Source: a virus. From it: DNA of 32,117 bases. The notes beneath the pieces were generated by a model. That model did no database searches. It was not told where the DNA came from and saw only the letters and a program-made list of their open reading frames with translations. The DNA is taken from IMG/VR virus record IMGVR_UViG_3300042509_000239, positions 1 through 32,117 of that record. One strand, given 5' to 3'. Below are positions 1,058 through 29,503 of this stretch, in pieces. Both the position numbers and the translations under genes were made by a program. How positions within the stretch are numbered: the first letter of the stretch is position 1; the number at the start of each line of letters is the position of its first letter.

Positions 1058-1283
1058 CAATATCGTAGTCAAACCAGACCCCTTCGTTCAGTCTGGGCTA
1101 ATTATCATGCCTGAAGAGGATATGCGCACAGGTGTTGTGGTCGCTGTTGGTCCTGGCAAGAAGGGATCAAACCGCCCACTAATGGTATCGGTCGGGGATC
1201 ACATCATGTATAGTGGCACTATTGACCAAGAATTTGATGGTTTTTTGGTAATGAAGGACAAGGATGTCATTGGGACTGTATGA
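1038..1283 (+). CDS. groES: phage GroES-like co-chaperonin
   Basis: This 81-residue protein has the GroES opening ([12 protein letters not shown]), a mobile loop with the hydrophobic tripeptide at residues 20-23 (GLII, equivalent to GGIVL of bacterial GroES), and the core strands [12 protein letters not shown] and [10 protein letters not shown]. Bacterial GroES is about 97 residues, so the loop and roof are shortened. Phage co-chaperonins of this kind (the T4 gp31 principle) cap host GroEL to fold phage proteins, often the coat protein. P22-type coat is a known GroEL substrate, so that role is plausible here. No GroEL partner is in the window, so it must use the host's. It overlaps the genes on both sides. 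Confidence 0.85.
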
Positions 1284-1792
1284 TACTTACCAGACAACAA
1301 GCAATAGCGCAAAACGCAGCCCGATATTTTACGGGCAATGCTTGTATTAATGGTCATGTAACAGAACGGTACACAGCTAACAAAACTTGTTGTGAGTGCG
1401 CAAACGCAACTGCCAACAAAACAAAAGCAAAAGACCGACAAAAATATGTTGCGTCTTCTACTAATTGGCAACGTCTTAATCCAGATAAAGTCCACGCAAG
1501 TGTGCTTAAAGCCAATCGTAAAAATCCTGCTCGTCGCAATTTATGGACTGCAAATTACAAGCAAGCTAAAATAAAGCGTATGCCTGCTTGGTTAAATAGC
1601 GGTCAAATATTTGAGATGGAAAGCGTATACACATATTGTTCTGCGCTGAGAGGCTGCGGTCTTGACTATCATGTTGACCATATTGTGCCTTTACGAGGTA
1701 AAATTGTTTCAGGCCTTCATGTGCCGTGGAATTTACAGGTTATTCCAGGATCGGATAACGTAAAAAAAGGGAACCGGTTCGATGGCTATTAA
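1280..1792 (+). CDS. HNH endonuclease
   Basis: This 170-residue protein has the classical HNH ββα core near the C-terminus: DYHVDHIVPLRG (D133-H134), a second His at 147 in SGLHVPWNLQVI with N151, then SDNVKKGN (N160, N165). The N-terminal third has CxNGH and CCEC elements that may bind zinc. It is probably a homing endonuclease or a packaging-associated nicking enzyme. It sits directly before the portal, where some phages carry an HNH protein that assists terminase, so both roles remain open. The start ATG overlaps the co-chaperonin stop (ATGA), and its end overlaps the portal start by 11 bases. Confidence 0.85.
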   Translation: MILTRQQAIAQNAARYFTGNACINGHVTERYTANKTCCECANATANKTKAKDRQKYVASSTNWQRLNPDKVHASVLKANRKNPARRNLWTANYKQAKIKRMPAWLNSGQIFEMESVYTYCSALRGCGLDYHVDHIVPLRGKIVSGLHVPWNLQVIPGSDNVKKGNRFDGY

Positions 1793-22089: not shown

Positions 22090-22453
22090 ACTTTGCTCCT
22101 AGCAGTTCTACCCTTGGGTGGTGAAATAGCCATGCTGCTGCATAGTCTGGTCTGGGTGCGTCAATCTCTATCTTCTCAGTGACTACGGTGTCTTTAATCT
22201 TTTTGTTTGGTGCCTTACGTTTGCCAACAAACTCAACAGAATCACCTTTGCCGTACCTGTATGCCTTCGTAGGCACCCCGTACTTACCACTGCGCCACTC
22301 ACACACATAAATGTGACCGGCCTCCTCTAGGCGTCGTAGGTGAGCTGCAATGGCAGTAGCAACCATTTTCATTTCTTTGGCAATCTCAGCAGCAGTCATG
22401 CTTTTTTTGCTTTTCAGAATGTCAAGCACTTGTTCTTGTTTGGGGGTGATCAT
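22082..22453 (-). CDS. winged-helix DNA-binding regulator
   Basis: This 123-residue protein begins with a helix-turn-helix of the MarR/ArsR winged type: TPKQEQVLDILKSKKSMTAA, EIAKEMKMVATAIAAHLRRL, EEAGHIYVCEWRSG (residues 3-56), in which the last piece is the wing. The second half is basic (KRKAPNKKIKD) and ends with an aromatic DYAAAWLFHHPRVELLG. It could regulate phage or host promoters. RBS GAGGAG is well placed. The gene overlaps its upstream neighbour by ATGA. Confidence 0.8.
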   Translation of the reverse strand: MITPKQEQVLDILKSKKSMTAAEIAKEMKMVATAIAAHLRRLEEAGHIYVCEWRSGKYGVPTKAYRYGKGDSVEFVGKRKAPNKKIKDTVVTEKIEIDAPRPDYAAAWLFHHPRVELLGAKYE

Positions 22454-23085
22454 GTGTTTTTCTCCTCAATGTTATAAAACCAATTGTCATCCGCACTCCA
22501 TTTGCGGGTGCCATCTACCGTCCAGAATGTTTGTGCCGCTTGAAAGTCAGGGAATTTTGTCTCGCTTGGTATTAGGCTTTGGTCGTACCACAGGCACCGG
22601 TTGTTTGGCTGGCAAGCAAACTGTCCGTTATCAAGACGTATAAAGTTAAACGATTTGTGTTCTTCTGCCTGTTCGGTAAAACCCGTATCCAAGTCTTGCC
22701 CATCCGCGCAAAAGTCTACGGTAAACAAGTAAGTACCAAACTGCCATGTCTTGTCTTTAGCCAAGAACTTAACGCCTAAGTTGCGCAGGCCAATCTTTTC
22801 GATGACCGTAAACCTATACCCCATGCAGTCCCAAAGTTGTAATGTGTCGATAGGCAGCATGGCAGGGCTATCTGTATGCCAAACATAAGCGTGGATGGGC
22901 AGCTTGTCGTACAGAGCACCGTAGTTAGGTAGTAGGCTCTCTATGCGAAACACCTGACCTCTGAGCGCTTTGATGCTGACCCAGATGGCGGGTTCGTATT
23001 CGCCGTGACCTTTGGTAAAGTTATATAAAAACTCACGCCGCACAAAGCACTTTAGTGGCGGGAGGGATGAGACGATGTAGCTCAT
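22450..23085 (-). CDS. conserved phage hypothetical protein
   Basis: This 211-residue aromatic-rich protein (start MSYIVSSLPPLKCFVRREFL; end WFYNIEEKNT) is unrecognised as to function. It has repeated Trp/Tyr/Phe strands (PAIWVSIKALRGQVFRIESL, LPIHAYVWHTD, WQFGTYLFTVDFC) and an end with FACQPNNRCLWYDQSLI and WSADDNWFYNI, suggesting a beta-rich fold. I recall similar proteins of this length in several phages, always hypothetical. ATG 23085 is chosen because AAAGGAG lies upstream and the preceding gene ends at 23082 (ATGA overlap); an upstream in-frame codon at 23121 has neither. Confidence 0.75.
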   Translation of the reverse strand: MSYIVSSLPPLKCFVRREFLYNFTKGHGEYEPAIWVSIKALRGQVFRIESLLPNYGALYDKLPIHAYVWHTDSPAMLPIDTLQLWDCMGYRFTVIEKIGLRNLGVKFLAKDKTWQFGTYLFTVDFCADGQDLDTGFTEQAEEHKSFNFIRLDNGQFACQPNNRCLWYDQSLIPSETKFPDFQAAQTFWTVDGTRKWSADDNWFYNIEEKNT

Positions 23086-23459
23086 GTGTTGCGCTCCTTT
23101 AGCTTGGCTTCTGCCCACCACACGGCAGACTGAAAAGCCTGTTCTGTCACCCAGCTTTGTTTTACGCCTTCTGCTATCTCCTCGTCAGTCAGCCCGACCC
23201 ATATACGTTTAATCGCTTCAGTCTCGTCAATCCCATCTTGTTTGCCAGCAAAGTATGCTCGTTCATAAATGTCTAGTGGGTGTTGTGACTGCTCAACACT
23301 CAACCCACCAGACCGATGCGCCATGTCGGATGTGTCCCATTGTTCAAGTGCTTGGCGTAAATCGTCTACAACAATAGCAATAATATGCTCGTCAGCTCGT
23401 AGAAGTTTATTTTCTAGCACTTGCTTTGCTGACTCTGCGGCTTTGCGTAATTCAGTCAT
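23082..23459 (-). CDS. phage hypothetical protein
   Basis: This 125-residue mainly helical protein runs ELRKAAESAKQVLENKLLRA, VDDLRQALEQWDTSDMAHRS, YERAYFAGKQDGIDETEAIK, WVGLTDEEIAEGVKQSW, then FQSAVWWAEAKLKERN. Mixed 'LTDEEI' and 'AAREIEAKLKERN' modules like this are common in variable early phage proteins that seem to shuffle short segments. No enzymatic motif. Start 23459 (with GGGAGA upstream) is supported by the ATGA overlap with the upstream gene. Confidence 0.68.
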   Translation of the reverse strand: MTELRKAAESAKQVLENKLLRADEHIIAIVVDDLRQALEQWDTSDMAHRSGGLSVEQSQHPLDIYERAYFAGKQDGIDETEAIKRIWVGLTDEEIAEGVKQSWVTEQAFQSAVWWAEAKLKERNT

Positions 23460-23823: not shown

Positions 23824-23963
23824 TTTGCCTCCAACGCAGTCTTAATCAAGTGAACAATCTGGCGGCTGATTGAGCGAGTCTGGCTATCGGCTTGCGCTTT
23901 CACAACCTTGAATATCTCAATCGGCATACGGATGGTGACAAATCTATCTTTAGGTTCGATCAT
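23820..23963 (-). CDS. ribbon-helix-helix (Arc-like) DNA-binding protein
   Basis: This 47-residue protein is the size of a minimal ribbon-helix-helix repressor such as Arc (53). The strand RFVTIRMP is followed by helix 1 (IEIFKVVKAQADSQ), a turn (TRSI) and helix 2 (SRQIVHLIKTALEA). Dimers bind DNA through the paired strands. ATG 23963 is chosen because GGAG lies 8 bases upstream and the RHH strand starts within eight residues; the longer reading from 24047 lies over the nuclease gene. It overlaps that gene by 14 bases. Confidence 0.78.
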   Translation of the reverse strand: MIEPKDRFVTIRMPIEIFKVVKAQADSQTRSISRQIVHLIKTALEAK

Positions 23964-24288
23964 TTCTATTCTCCAGTATTTGTGCCTTGGCATCCTCAGC
24001 ACCAAGTCCCACAATAACATGGTAACCAACACTTTGTAAATAATCAATCATGCCTTGTTGCTCTGGCGATATCTTGCCACCCTTGACTTTCTTCATCTCA
24101 ATCCACAGTTTCCATGCCGGTACAAACAAGTCTGGGATGCCAGGCACCACGCCCTCGACCTTAAGCTTCATGGCTTGCGTCTTGGAGCGCAGTCCCCCAT
24201 TTGGAATCGCAAAGATTAATGTATCCGGATAGGTGCGGCGAAACCACATGATAAGGTGGGCTTGTTCTAGGTGTTCTGAAGTCACCAT
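23950..24288 (-). CDS. VRR-NUC-type nuclease
   Basis: This 112-residue protein, from the ATG at 24288 with GCGGGGA upstream, carries the VRR-NUC (PD-(D/E)XK) pattern: E8, AIPNGG (27-32), VPGIPDLF (48-55, Asp 53), LWIEMKK (61-67, Glu 64 and Lys 66), then SPEQQGMIDYLQSVGYHVIV with Gln 77. Stand-alone VRR-NUC proteins in phages are Holliday-junction resolvase-like or structure-specific nucleases. Position between a PP-loop enzyme and regulators in a recombination operon fits a role in resolving replication intermediates. A longer in-frame start at 24489 would lie inside the PP-loop gene and is rejected. Confidence 0.88.
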   Translation of the reverse strand: MVTSEHLEQAHLIMWFRRTYPDTLIFAIPNGGLRSKTQAMKLKVEGVVPGIPDLFVPAWKLWIEMKKVKGGKISPEQQGMIDYLQSVGYHVIVGLGAEDAKAQILENRNDRT

Positions 24289-24289
24289 G

Positions 24290-25138
24290 TCATTCCCCGC
24301 AGAAACAAGCAATGCCTTCTTCATCTGGATCAATAAGTGATATCTGATCTTTTGTAAACTGCGCCATGCTTGCATAGCCAGGACGATCTTTGCGAAAGGT
24401 GGCACCGCTTGGTTTGGATGCCAATACCATAGCTTCCATATTTGCCCACCAAATCGCACGCTCTGGCCTTTCAGCAATAAGTGTTGCAATCTGATTGGCT
24501 GGCTTTAAAAAACACAGATCACAATTGCCCGCCAATGTCCTACCGTTATATGTCGGCAACTCAAGATTAAATGATTGTTTTGCCCAAAAATTACCTACAT
24601 CTTGAACACTTACTTTTGCAGTAAATAGAGGTATCCTGCGCTTATCCGCTACCTTTGTGGCGCGACGTGCTTCGTCATATCGCAACCCTATCCATGATGC
24701 GTTCTCTAATTCTGATTTTGTGCAATCGTCAAACAGTCCAGAGTGTTTAAGAAAACACGCCATAGTGCGTATTTTTAATTCACTTGTGCAAAACCTTGTT
24801 ACTGGATTAGGTAAATATTGACGCTTGCGAATGATTGCCTCAAACGGTTCCCCGTTTCGTGCGGCCGTCTCATAAGTAACTTCTTTGTACCTATACTCTG
24901 GCTTTTCGTGTTCTTGATATTCAATCCAATGTATTTTGACATTCCAATTAACAGAACAATCGTTAACAAACTTTAGTGTGGCTTCCTCTTCTTTGCCTGT
25001 GTTTGCAAAGCACACAATGCCATCATCAGGCATCTTCCCGCCATGTGCCTCTAGCACTTTGTAAAGCATATAGGCAGAAGTCCTGCCGCCAGAGAAGCTT
25101 ATGCACGTTGGTTCTGTAATTTCGTATGGGTTTACCAT
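24290..25138 (-). CDS. PAPS-reductase-like PP-loop ATP pyrophosphatase
   Basis: This 282-residue protein has the PP-loop SFSGGRTSAYML (residues 14-25), the IVCFANTGKEE strand, the RFCTSELKIRTM signature (C117, like CTxxLK in PAPS reductase/DndC relatives), SWIGLRYDEARR, a C206-x2-C209 pair in GNCDLCFLKP, and a terminal CFC (278 and 280). The four-to-five Cys set could hold a Fe-S cluster. Family members activate a substrate with ATP and in several cases transfer sulfur; a classical sulfate-assimilation role is unlikely in a phage. Nucleic-acid modification is possible but unproved. It overlaps the helicase by seven bases and precedes the nuclease. Confidence 0.85.
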   Translation of the reverse strand: MVNPYEITEPTCISFSGGRTSAYMLYKVLEAHGGKMPDDGIVCFANTGKEEEATLKFVNDCSVNWNVKIHWIEYQEHEKPEYRYKEVTYETAARNGEPFEAIIRKRQYLPNPVTRFCTSELKIRTMACFLKHSGLFDDCTKSELENASWIGLRYDEARRATKVADKRRIPLFTAKVSVQDVGNFWAKQSFNLELPTYNGRTLAGNCDLCFLKPANQIATLIAERPERAIWWANMEAMVLASKPSGATFRKDRPGYASMAQFTKDQISLIDPDEEGIACFCGE

Positions 25139-26724
25139 AATCTTTTCACCACCTTATAAAATTTGCCATCCCGCTGGTAAGAAATCATGCGAGGCGGGTT
25201 AGCCTGGTTCATCTGCACCACCAAATAATTGATAGGTGCCTGCTCTTGGTTAATGCCAGACAGCACTGCCTTTGCTTGGTTGCCTATGTCATGCAACAAC
25301 TGCCATGATTTCTGCCCAGCAAAGCCTTGATTAAAAATGGGCAAATACTCAGTAATTGGCGGGTCAGTCAAGCCACCATAGTAAGTGACAGCAATCATTT
25401 CGTTGCCACTGGCACGGCTAACATGCTTGCGCCAATGCCAATCAGTCACCGGCATATCCATGCCATTTAGCCCCATGATGTCGTCATGGCGCAGCACTAA
25501 CTTCTTTTCTTCTGGCGGTGGGAATGCGTGACCACAGTTCGGGCAGACCTTAGCAGAGATATGCACAATCTCATGGCACTCATCGCACACCTTGACCGGT
25601 ACCTCGCCCTCACCCGACCCACCCTTTTTTGGTGGCTGCACGTTGGTGATCGGACCGTGCGTCTCGACCACCCCCGCAAAGTCGAGCACCAAGCAGTGAT
25701 CGGTGTGACTCTTGGGGCGCATACCACGCCCTGCCATCTGGACATAGAGCGATGCGCTCATGGTTGGGCGTAGCATAGCGATCAGGTCTATATCCGGATA
25801 GTCAAATCCTGTGGTCAGCACATTGGCATTGGTCAGCGCACGAATGCGCCCAGCCTTAAACTCGGTCAGTATCCTGTCACGCTCTGCCTTGGGTGTTTCA
25901 CCGGTCACACACGCTGCAGTCACGCCCTGCGCAATTAATTCTTGGCATACGTTCTGTGCGTGTTTGACACCAGCGCAAAAGAACAACCAGGCGCGTCGAT
26001 CACAGGCAAGCTTGATGACCTCACGCACCACTTGTTTATTTTTATCGGCATTGTCCACTGCCGCCTGCAACTCGGACTCAATGTACTCGCCACCACGCTT
26101 GTGTACACCCGACACGTCAAAGCGCTCGGACGTGGTTTTGCTACGCAGGGTCGCCAAATATTTTTTATAAACTAACTCCTCAATGCTGACCGGCTCAATC
26201 AACGCATCAAACAATGCCGGTTTATCCGTGATTAAACCGTGCCCAAGGCGATAAGGCGTGGCGGTCAACCCTACCACCCTAAGATTAGGATTAATCGCTT
26301 GTAGGTCGTTTAAAAGGGTGCGGTATCCGCCCTCATCTTTGTGGCTCACTAGGTGACACTCATCAACAATCACCAAATCAATGTGTCCAAGCAGGGCTGC
26401 CTTGGTTCTGACTGACTGAATGCCGGCAAAGGTAATGGGTTCACCCAATTGACGCTTGCCGATCCCTGCGCTATAAATACCCAAAGGCGCTCCCCTCCAG
26501 TGGAGTCTCATTTTCTCTGCATTCTGAACAATCAACTCTTTGACATGCGTCAACATAAGAATTTTTGTTTTTGGCCAAGATTGCAGCGCGTCCTTACACA
26601 GCGCCGCCACGATGTGGCTCTTCCCCGACCCAGTTGGCAGGACGAGGCACGGGTTGCCGGTTGGGTTCTTGTGAAACCACGCATATAGCTGATCGATGGC
26701 GCGTTGTTGGTAGTCACGCAACAT
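25132..26724 (-). CDS. SF2 DEAD/DEAH-type helicase with zinc ribbon
   Basis: This 530-residue protein carries SF2 motifs: Q-like RDYQQRAI (3-10), Walker A PTGSGKS (30-36), Ia MLTHVKEL, DECH (121-124), GLTATP (152-157), VTGETPKAER, ALTNANVLTTGFDYP (296-310) and motif VI QMAGRGMRP (329-337). A Cys4 ribbon (C380, C383, C394, C397) follows, then a C-terminal domain without known motif. Related phage helicases unwind forked or recombination DNA (UvsW/RecG-type work). Start: ATG at 26724 overlaps the TGA of the upstream gene; a TTG one codon earlier (26727) is possible, because GGAG spacing suits both. Confidence 0.93.
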   Translation of the reverse strand: MLRDYQQRAIDQLYAWFHKNPTGNPCLVLPTGSGKSHIVAALCKDALQSWPKTKILMLTHVKELIVQNAEKMRLHWRGAPLGIYSAGIGKRQLGEPITFAGIQSVRTKAALLGHIDLVIVDECHLVSHKDEGGYRTLLNDLQAINPNLRVVGLTATPYRLGHGLITDKPALFDALIEPVSIEELVYKKYLATLRSKTTSERFDVSGVHKRGGEYIESELQAAVDNADKNKQVVREVIKLACDRRAWLFFCAGVKHAQNVCQELIAQGVTAACVTGETPKAERDRILTEFKAGRIRALTNANVLTTGFDYPDIDLIAMLRPTMSASLYVQMAGRGMRPKSHTDHCLVLDFAGVVETHGPITNVQPPKKGGSGEGEVPVKVCDECHEIVHISAKVCPNCGHAFPPPEEKKLVLRHDDIMGLNGMDMPVTDWHWRKHVSRASGNEMIAVTYYGGLTDPPITEYLPIFNQGFAGQKSWQLLHDIGNQAKAVLSGINQEQAPINYLVVQMNQANPPRMISYQRDGKFYKVVKRLW

Positions 26725-27740
26725 CAAAATATCTCCGCACCAAAGTCTTTACGCAAGGTCTTGATGAACTCATCAGGACTCGCACAGGCTTTGTAATTGG
26801 CAACAATTTCGCGGCTGGAAAAGACATCCGGACCTTTAATGCCATTACTAATCTCACCTTCTGGCGTGATCCAGATAACGTCATCGCCCAAAATCTTGAC
26901 CTTCCACGGTACTAGATCAGGGTGCAGAACGTGCGCCTCGCAGCCAGCCTTTTGATTCTCAAAACTTAGTTTGACGTTGTACTCTAAACAAGACCAAGTG
27001 CCATCTTCATTGGCACTGCTGTAAGTACAAGTCCGACAGTTAACTTCCTTAGTCAACTTAGTCTTATGGCAAAACTCATGCGCCGCACAGAACCGGCATT
27101 CAAACCATGTAGGGTCGGTGCTAATGGGTGGTGGCATACGATCAGCCTTGACCAAGCGATGGCCACGCTCCACGCCCTTCTGAGCCACAGCCTTATCAAG
27201 CTTGACCCGCTCGGTATAGATACGGTCGTCGTCCTTGCATATCGCCACATACAGCGCACGGTCAAGCTTCATCCCTAGCATGTACATCTGCATCTGGACA
27301 AAGTGCATGGGCTTGGACTTCTCAACGCCATCCTTTAGCAAACTATCAAACGATTTCTTGCCATGCGTCTTGATCTCCAACACATGGGGTGTCTTGGGTG
27401 CTTCTGGCACACCAGATTCAATGATGCCGTCAATGCTGCCAGAGACATGGCACCCGAAGTCCACCCGACTTTGGTTAGCACCGGTCTTTTGCACACTCAT
27501 ACCAATAGCGCGTAGGTCTGACACAACTTGTGCCTCCTCAGTCTGACCACGTCTGAACAGGCGCAGGATCCGACCAGGGAACTTCTCGACCACCGCCATT
27601 CTAAACGATAGCCATAGCCACCGATCGCAGGGGTGACCCAGTACGCTAGCACCCATGTGGGGTCGAGCACCACCCTGATTATCTTCATGGTGCTTGTCAA
27701 TCAGTGCTTCAATCGTGTATTCTGACTCTGGTATTTTCAT
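26724..27740 (-). CDS. Cas4/RecB-like PD-(D/E)XK exonuclease
   Basis: This 338-residue protein has a RecB-family nuclease core: RRGQTEEAQVV (E69), GSIDGI (Asp 104), LEIKTHGKKSF (Glu 122, Lys 124) and FVQMQMYMLGM (Gln 151). Cys 38 (GHPCDR) together with C215, C218 and C224 (ECRFCAAHEFC) forms a Cas4/AddB-like Fe-S site. A second Cys set (C235, C238, C251, C267) may bind zinc. The C-terminal domain (270-338) is unfamiliar. Such phage enzymes resect DNA ends for single-strand annealing recombination. RBS AAGGAGAGG precedes the start. Confidence 0.88.
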   Translation of the reverse strand: MKIPESEYTIEALIDKHHEDNQGGARPHMGASVLGHPCDRWLWLSFRMAVVEKFPGRILRLFRRGQTEEAQVVSDLRAIGMSVQKTGANQSRVDFGCHVSGSIDGIIESGVPEAPKTPHVLEIKTHGKKSFDSLLKDGVEKSKPMHFVQMQMYMLGMKLDRALYVAICKDDDRIYTERVKLDKAVAQKGVERGHRLVKADRMPPPISTDPTWFECRFCAAHEFCHKTKLTKEVNCRTCTYSSANEDGTWSCLEYNVKLSFENQKAGCEAHVLHPDLVPWKVKILGDDVIWITPEGEISNGIKGPDVFSSREIVANYKACASPDEFIKTLRKDFGAEIF

Positions 27741-27760: not shown

Positions 27761-27793
27761 TGCCCCCAACCGTGTGGCTGGGGGCATTTTTTT
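27761..27793 (+). terminator. hairpin with T-run, oriented opposite to the operon
   Basis: TGCCCCCA (27761-27768) pairs with TGGGGGCA (27779-27786), continued by CC/GG after one mismatch, around the loop GTGT. On the plus strand it is followed by seven T (27787-27793), so it reads as an intrinsic terminator for rightward transcription. In the leftward operon the RNA has an A-run on both sides of the stem, so termination there should be poor and the hairpin might only stabilise or process the mRNA. Confidence 0.65.
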
Positions 27794-28259
27794 ACTTCTT
27801 AACCCAAGGTGGGGCTGCCTTAGCTGCTGCCGGTGCTTTGGCTGCCACTGGTGGTGCAGCGCCATTAGACTTGTAACCCTTGACGTCGTTCGATGCGCCA
27901 TACTGCTCGGACTCACGCACATCTAGCTTAATGCTCAACTGTCCACCAATTAATTGATCAGTGTCTTGCACAGTTGTCAAGCCAATTGCTCGCATAAGCT
28001 CACCAAGCTGCTGGCGACCAATCTCCTCAGCCTTGGGGTTTGGGTTCTTGATGTTCAGGTTGCCAAACACCACGCGCCCTTGGTGGGTGGGTCCAGTAAT
28101 GTCATAGCGCACAGCAATATACTGACCCGTGCCTGCTTTGGTGTTTTTGATCTCCGCACCGTTCACCACTGCTGTGTACCAGCCAGCCGGTAATGGTTCA
28201 AAATTACGGTCAGAGACGGGGAGCGCGTCAACGCTGAAGGTTTCGAGAAGTTGTGCCAT
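27792..28259 (-). CDS. DUF669-like single-stranded-DNA-binding protein
   Basis: This 155-residue protein begins LETFSVDALPVSDRNFEPLP then AGWYTAVVNGAEIKNTKAGT, with QYIAVRYDITGPTHQGRVVF and a conserved GNLNIKNPNPKAEEIGRQQL segment, the arrangement of DUF669 proteins, which are phage-encoded SSB-like partners of Sak-type recombinases. The last 25 residues are Ala/Pro-rich and end PPWVKK, basic rather than the acidic SSB tip. It probably coats ssDNA made by the nuclease or helicase for the ATPase encoded upstream. A hairpin follows its stop. Confidence 0.82.
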   Translation of the reverse strand: MAQLLETFSVDALPVSDRNFEPLPAGWYTAVVNGAEIKNTKAGTGQYIAVRYDITGPTHQGRVVFGNLNIKNPNPKAEEIGRQQLGELMRAIGLTTVQDTDQLIGGQLSIKLDVRESEQYGASNDVKGYKSNGAAPPVAAKAPAAAKAAPPWVKK

Positions 28260-28831: not shown

Positions 28832-29503
28832 TCAACCCCCAATCTTTGCAATGATGGCACCAAGGTCGGGTGCTTCCCAAGTGTCAAGCTTGCCGCTACG
28901 ATCCTTGGCTTGCCAGATACCGTCGCTGTCACACATCAGCGCACGTTGCGCATTGCCCTCTTGATCTTTCTCCACACGGAGTGCCAGAACCATGTCAAAG
29001 AAATAAGGTAATTGTTGGCCTGTCTTGTTACCAGGCATCGAAGGTGCATAAAGAATTCGACCAGTTTCATCAGTTGCCTTTTCGCACTTGGCGGTAAAGT
29101 AAACGTGCTTGTTGGGGATATCACGGAACGCACGGATGATGTCAGACATCTGCTCCTGCATGGCGCCGTAGGCTTGGCGCGGATCTTTTGCAATCTTCTT
29201 CTCATGATTCAAAACAACTTCAGCAATCTCGCTAATTGAATCCAGAGTGATTGACTCAAAGTGCTTAGCTTCGTCAGATTCAGTCACCCATCTGTACGCT
29301 TCCATCAGTGTGTCGTAAGATGACACCTCAACAAAAGGCACGTCAGCATCAGCAATAGACAAAAGACCGCCTTCTGCTGAGAACACTACAGGATTAGGCA
29401 GTGTTGGAATCAGTGAGGTTTTGCCAGCTCCTGCATTACCGTACACCAATAACTTCACGCCGTTAGCGTGTAAACCTTTAGTACTGCGTAGATTGATAGC
29501 CAT
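28832..29503 (-). CDS. Sak4-like RecA-family ATPase (AAA_24)
   Basis: This 223-residue protein has Walker A GNAGAGKTS (22-30), an acidic sensor-like region FSAEGGLLSI, a Walker B-type strand SITLDSIS (84-91), MQEQMSDIIRAFRDIPNKHV and the VYFTAKC strand. Length and motifs match phage Sak4 single-strand annealing proteins, RecA-core ATPases that work with an SSB-like partner; the DUF669-like gene lies three genes downstream. It is the first gene of the long leftward operon, with RBS TAGGAGAG, directly facing the control region. Confidence 0.9.
   Translation of the reverse strand: MAINLRSTKGLHANGVKLLVYGNAGAGKTSLIPTLPNPVVFSAEGGLLSIADADVPFVEVSSYDTLMEAYRWVTESDEAKHFESITLDSISEIAEVVLNHEKKIAKDPRQAYGAMQEQMSDIIRAFRDIPNKHVYFTAKCEKATDETGRILYAPSMPGNKTGQQLPYFFDMVLALRVEKDQEGNAQRALMCDSDGIWQAKDRSGKLDTWEAPDLGAIIAKIGG

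Follow-up and report, generated by a model that had tools for sequence, protein, structure and literature searches.

The DNA analysed here (the window) is an IMG/VR virus record of 32,117 bases, which carries on its minus strand, at 24290-25138, an ATG-started open reading frame whose 282-amino-acid product is predicted to be an SspD-like PP-loop ATP pyrophosphatase or sulfur-transfer enzyme of the phrog_424, or lambda NinC, family. An earlier note on this DNA had described the gene as overlapping or abutting a helicase gene and a VRR-NUC gene, and this is indeed its setting. On one side, its start shares 7 nt (ATGGTAA, 25138-25132) with the stop of a gene for a RadD-like (RadD/ResIII) SF2 helicase with a C-terminal zinc ribbon (25132-26727, minus strand). 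On the other side, a single nt separates its TGA stop (24292-24290) from the ATG at 24288 that is the probable start of a gene for a VRR-NUC nuclease of the phage Holliday-junction-resolvase type (23950-24288, minus strand; PHROG E=4e-38, Pfam VRR_NUC E=7.9e-5, the latter just under the gathering score); a longer, TTG-started open reading frame at 23950-24489 is a mechanical extension of this nuclease gene. Upstream and in the same direction, Pfam and PHROG profiles identify a Cas4/RecE-type PD-(D/E)XK exonuclease (26724-27740), a DUF669 protein of the single-strand-DNA-binding type (27792-28259) and a Sak4-like single-strand annealing protein (28832-29503), all on the minus strand, and so the term 'recombination operon' is correct for this phage. 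Since no large terminase was recognized in the window, the record may be a fragment. Elsewhere in the window, two endonuclease VII/HNH-like genes (263-775 and 1280-1792, plus strand) lie just ahead of the portal gene, and a gene at 22450-23121 (minus strand) matches phrog_3704, whose ferredoxin label looks doubtful, as the product lacks the CxxC cluster motif typical of ferredoxins.

The PP-loop protein matches phrog_424 at E=5e-40 (5.1e-40) and, judged by this profile, belongs to PHROG 424, which includes NinC of phage lambda; this family is common among phages, and in that sense the enzyme is ordinary. No NCBIfam model matches it, and its Pfam PAPS_reduct score of 16.4 bits is below the curated cut-off of 22.5. 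The PP-loop motif SGGRTS (residues 16-21, 25076-25093) is intact, as had been noticed earlier, and within an alignment of 156 homologues S16, G18, R19 and S21 are invariant, with G17 retained in 152/156 and T20 in 153/156. Also invariant across the 156 are K122, R153, D155, E156 and three core cysteines, namely C117 in R-F-C-T-x-x-L-K (24788-24790) and the pair C206 and C209 in G-N-C-D-L-C-F-x-K (24512-24523), all three of which occur in SspD and DndC too. A count of conserved cysteines among homologues, which the earlier note had named as a test of its five-residue set, thus gave 156/156 for the core three and >97% for the C-terminal pair C278 and C280 (CFC, 24299-24307; 152/156 and 153/156, respectively). 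All five are present here, but only the core three are universal, as the Cys tail has no counterpart in the Acinetobacter plasmid versions and in one Vibrio phage version. Further cysteines at positions 12, 43, 61, 128 and 139 are not family-wide. The core three probably form a putative three-Cys [4Fe-4S] site, a pattern also known from DndC, where a [4Fe-4S] centre is held by three cysteines (PMC10853773). Judged from dN/dS, the gene is under purifying selection, with values of 0.03-0.08 against relatives at 78-80% nucleotide identity that are approximate because synonymous sites are saturated. Taken with the phrog_424 match and the existence of 79 IMG/VR relatives, this places the reading frame far from chance.

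An AlphaFold2 model built with 33 relatives in the alignment has a pLDDT of 87.5 and a pTM of 0.86, the exception being tail residues 273-282, which fall below a pLDDT of 50 and are predicted to be disordered. The best solved Foldseek matches are APS reductase, the [4Fe-4S] enzyme LarE and CysH (E 2e-3 to 5e-3, TM 0.28-0.41); since these are superfamily-level matches, none with E<1e-3, Foldseek cannot discriminate among the enzymes. A search of PDB chain sequences, with the single sequence and with a profile, returned no relative. In virome studies, NinC relatives are routinely counted as cysH auxiliary metabolic genes of sulfur assimilation, and the usual reading of the gene would be a sulfonucleotide (PAPS/APS) reductase. 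That reading draws on annotation habit, on a fold common to APS reductase and CysH, and on the cysteines that both CysH and the present protein have in a flexible C-terminal tail. It is nevertheless highly improbable, and CysH was rejected: the hhalign match to CysH is 0.8% and not significant, the protein has an ATP-type PP-loop where that of CysH is altered as well as core cysteines that E. coli CysH lacks, its tail reads CFCGE instead of the ECG-type catalytic tail, and it sits among DNA genes. The earlier doubt that sulfate assimilation was involved was thus well placed, and the NinC family as a whole is probably misfiled under that heading.

For comparison with characterized enzymes, the SspD and DndC profiles were made from sequences taken from complete operons (in the case of SspD, a true sspBCD operon). 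The match to SspD (hhalign 98.6%, E=1.3e-15, 194 columns) is second to that with lambda NinC (99.7%, E=2e-25), whereas DndC and TtcA reach 26.6% and 2.2%, respectively; the PADLOC SspD model is matched by 33/33 close relatives, while the PADLOC DndC model does not match the window protein. In a maximum-likelihood tree, in which TtcA, CysH and NinC have long branches, the NinC family forms its own clade with SspD as the neighbouring one; support is 90/93 at the fork leading to the family and 92/73 at the split where the long-branched TtcA joins it, and the SspD sequences make up a separate clade (98/98) with the PP-loop protein outside it. On these profile and tree comparisons, the nearest characterized relative is SspD, not DndC, CysH or TtcA, and the 'DndC-like' label in the earlier note is to be replaced. 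SspD is the ATP pyrophosphatase of SspABCD DNA phosphorothioation, with which bacteria mark their own DNA by sulfur in its backbone. As the nearest relative, DndC gives way on the weaker match, and no dndD or dndE product was recognized among the scanned window proteins; DndC shares the core cysteines of RxCTxxLK and CxxC, but is much longer and falls in another clade. TtcA was set aside on the profile comparison and on motifs (CxxC pairs), its alignment being limited to the PP-loop.

The likeness to SspD takes in the PP-loop, the core Cys pattern and the C-terminal Cys pair, and in detail comprises a length of ~280 aa and the motifs SGG-x-(D/T)-S, TG(K/E)E, RxCTxxLK, (G/A)IRxDExxR and CxxCF followed by a Cys-pair tail. 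Against this, identity is ~25%, the clades are separate, and the tail is CxC (GIACFCGE) rather than the CxxCH (GGACLICHK) of SspD. SspB (DUF4007), SspC, DndD, DndE and a cysteine desulfurase were each looked for and not recognized among the window proteins scanned. Because its family branches next to SspD and not within it, and no SspB or SspC is recognizable in the window, the protein is best called SspD-like, not SspD, although it probably works like SspD; any sulfur mark would need host partners. Lambda NinC shares the PP-loop, the three core cysteines, the tail cysteines and a position in a phage recombination region, but has ~25-28% identity and is flanked by NinB and NinD, not by a helicase and VRR-NUC. 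The open-access literature searched assigns no biochemical function to lambda NinC, and the texts searched state neither the placement of its family beside SspD with a full Cys set nor the fusion described below.

Relatives were found at 79 loci in IMG/VR, in 200 phage records, including that of Salmonella phage Chi (lambda NinC being reached at E ~1e-8), and in 219 plasmid records, where conjugative Acinetobacter plasmids and E. coli elements of 92-101 kb predominate; one of the latter is typed IncY (P1-type). Among bacterial genomes, of which the best 80 of 276 stretches were taken, many relatives belong to a recurrent gene cluster that also holds topoisomerase III-like, cytosine methylase, DUF3085, DUF3577 and DUF3275 genes (loci L112, L113, L114, L120 and related ones); the chromosome of Pectobacterium aroidearum L6 has two copies of this cluster, each with the PP-loop gene. 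By gene content, these clusters are putative integrative and conjugative elements (ICEs) of the ICEclc/PAGI-2 type, and the family is borne by mobile elements, i.e. phages, P1-type phage-plasmids, conjugative plasmids and putative ICEs. Family members in phage records OM025231, OL699877, PP660558 and OR290970 are named holin or head morphogenesis, which is clearly wrong. A Pseudomonas homologue (L173:8042-9160, minus strand) has INGGRTS in place of SGGRTS and an altered C-terminus, and may be a decaying copy.

The linkage to DNA genes on which the earlier note had leaned holds in part. The pairing with helicase and VRR-NUC genes is kept only in the near lineage, at ~87-100% identity, with many loci at 82-88% lacking it, and was thus discarded as functional evidence. 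Unrelated families of recombination nuclease (RusA, Ref, YbcO, VRR-NUC) or NinB do, however, lie directly adjacent at 13 of 33 non-redundant viral loci, as against 32 of 263 for other genes of those loci (OR 4.7, p=2.6e-4, with the nuclease classes chosen after the neighbours were seen), and the context remains DNA-related. This adjacency, along with the lambda order ninB-ninC-...-ninG, would fit an accessory factor of recombination that works with the adjacent resolvases and annealing proteins on branched or single-stranded DNA rather than in defence. Such a role is unlikely, as the nuclease classes were post hoc, the association may reflect a shared nin-type position, and those nucleases are missing beside the copies examined on conjugative plasmids and putative ICEs. 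Less probable still is that the NinC family is a separate DNA sulfur-modification enzyme, borne by mobile elements, that operates with no SspB or SspC, the adjacent nuclease (VRR-NUC, RusA, Ref or YbcO) nicking as SspB does; SspB nicks DNA for phosphorothioation (PMC7188994, PMC8092258). Were that improbable scheme true, the sulfur mark would be of the phages' own making, applied as they recombine or replicate, from lambda through to the present phage.

Methylases provide a second connection to DNA. Cytosine methylase genes lie near the PP-loop gene at 13 viral and 20 bacterial loci, and in Vibrio phage 41E34.2 (MW824394, L189:2989-4428) a 479-aa protein, deposited only as a methyltransferase, joins a NinC-like PP-loop domain with both core and tail cysteines to a Dam N6-adenine methylase (PF05869, E=1.8e-38). 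This fusion is the strongest single pointer to DNA. The Salmonella phage Chi protein chi_017 (L083:419-1105), deposited as a PAPS reductase, is actually a Dam methylase with no PP-loop, a misnaming probably carried over from fused relatives. The fusion and the neighbouring genes also bear on whether the substrate might be tRNA or other RNA, thiolated or activated, for example, to shield phage translation from tRNA-cutting defences. Other PP-loop sulfurtransferases (TtcA/TtuA-type) act on tRNA, and the three-Cys pattern suits those as well. Such a target is distinctly unlikely here, for the relation to TtcA is confined to the PP-loop, DNA is what both the neighbours and the fusion partner act on, and no tRNA gene is present in the window.

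The preferred reading, tentative and held at somewhat less than an even chance, is ATP-dependent sulfur transfer that acts on DNA, or on the host phosphorothioation machinery, as a counter-defence. The protein would bind ATP at SGGRTS and activate its target via adenylylation, while a host cysteine desulfurase (IscS type) would supply the sulfur, to be passed on through the core cysteines 117, 206 and 209 and the mobile tail pair; the most likely target would be DNA. It may replace or compete with SspD or DndC in the host phosphorothioation complex, such that, early in infection, the sulfur label with which the host marks its own DNA would also reach phage DNA, or the defence would be disrupted. 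If this is right, many 'cysH' auxiliary metabolic genes would be DNA-modification or counter-defence genes, an idea that is directly testable in lambda. Weighing against this reading is the Thr that the PP-loop has where SspD and DndC have Asp. That substitution, like the pairing of an SspD-like surface and cysteines with no partner genes, would instead favour a decoy or dominant-negative protein, one that would block SspBCD or DndCDE complexes by docking into them, or block the desulfurase by binding it, and leave DNA unmodified. A decoy is fairly unlikely, as the near-perfect retention of PP-loop and cysteines in the 156 sequences and the low dN/dS argue for catalysis.

Counter-defence by sulfur transfer has precedents. 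For the bacterial system, an SspA-SspD complex has been demonstrated, and its authors infer that sulfur passes from the desulfurase SspA to SspD (PMC7188994, PMC8092258). A 2024 paper citing Piel et al. 2022 credits an anti-Dnd role to a vibriophage PAPS reductase (PMC10945359), although that paper's own phages did not fit, the gene in one Vibrio case not tracking infection of a Dnd host. An sspD-like gene of an Acinetobacter prophage has been proposed to mark the phage genome (PMC12421847). The role in DNA modification or counter-defence that the earlier note suggested is therefore plausible, having been published for relatives, and by the same token is not new. Removing the nin region does not impair the plating of lambda on laboratory strains (PMC10695390), which fits a counter-defence role but does not demonstrate one.

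Co-occurrence with phosphorothioation systems was assessed in two sets of bacterial genomes. In the set of 399 Pseudomonas genomes, 32 were counted as carriers by a strong match, at a limit of 1e-40 that was set after a gap was seen in the hit list; the query alignment for this search (A2) included chi_017, which later alignments left out. The gene is present in 4 of the 10 DndD carriers as against 28 of the 389 others (p=0.005, with genome size and ancestry uncontrolled), and in the DndD carriers it and the dnd loci are at separate places. There was no overlap with the seven Pseudomonas carriers of DUF4007 (SspB/BREX-4), and in 396 Burkholderiaceae-type genomes the overlap with Dnd was 0, for an expected 0.3 (11 and 11 carriers, and hence no power). 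The association is thus nominal, confined to Pseudomonas and to Dnd, and suggestive at most. Two additional arrangements of PP-loop genes were observed. A second PP-loop family, with SGGKDS, RFCTDELK and a Cys-rich tail, adjoins an apparent DNA cytosine methylase gene in Pseudomonas (L181:5935-7002 and L182:6075-7025), and in Acinetobacter baumannii plasmid NZ_CP115630 (L087:4834-6726) an N-6 DNA methylase gene comes after a tandem of two PP-loop genes that differ from each other.
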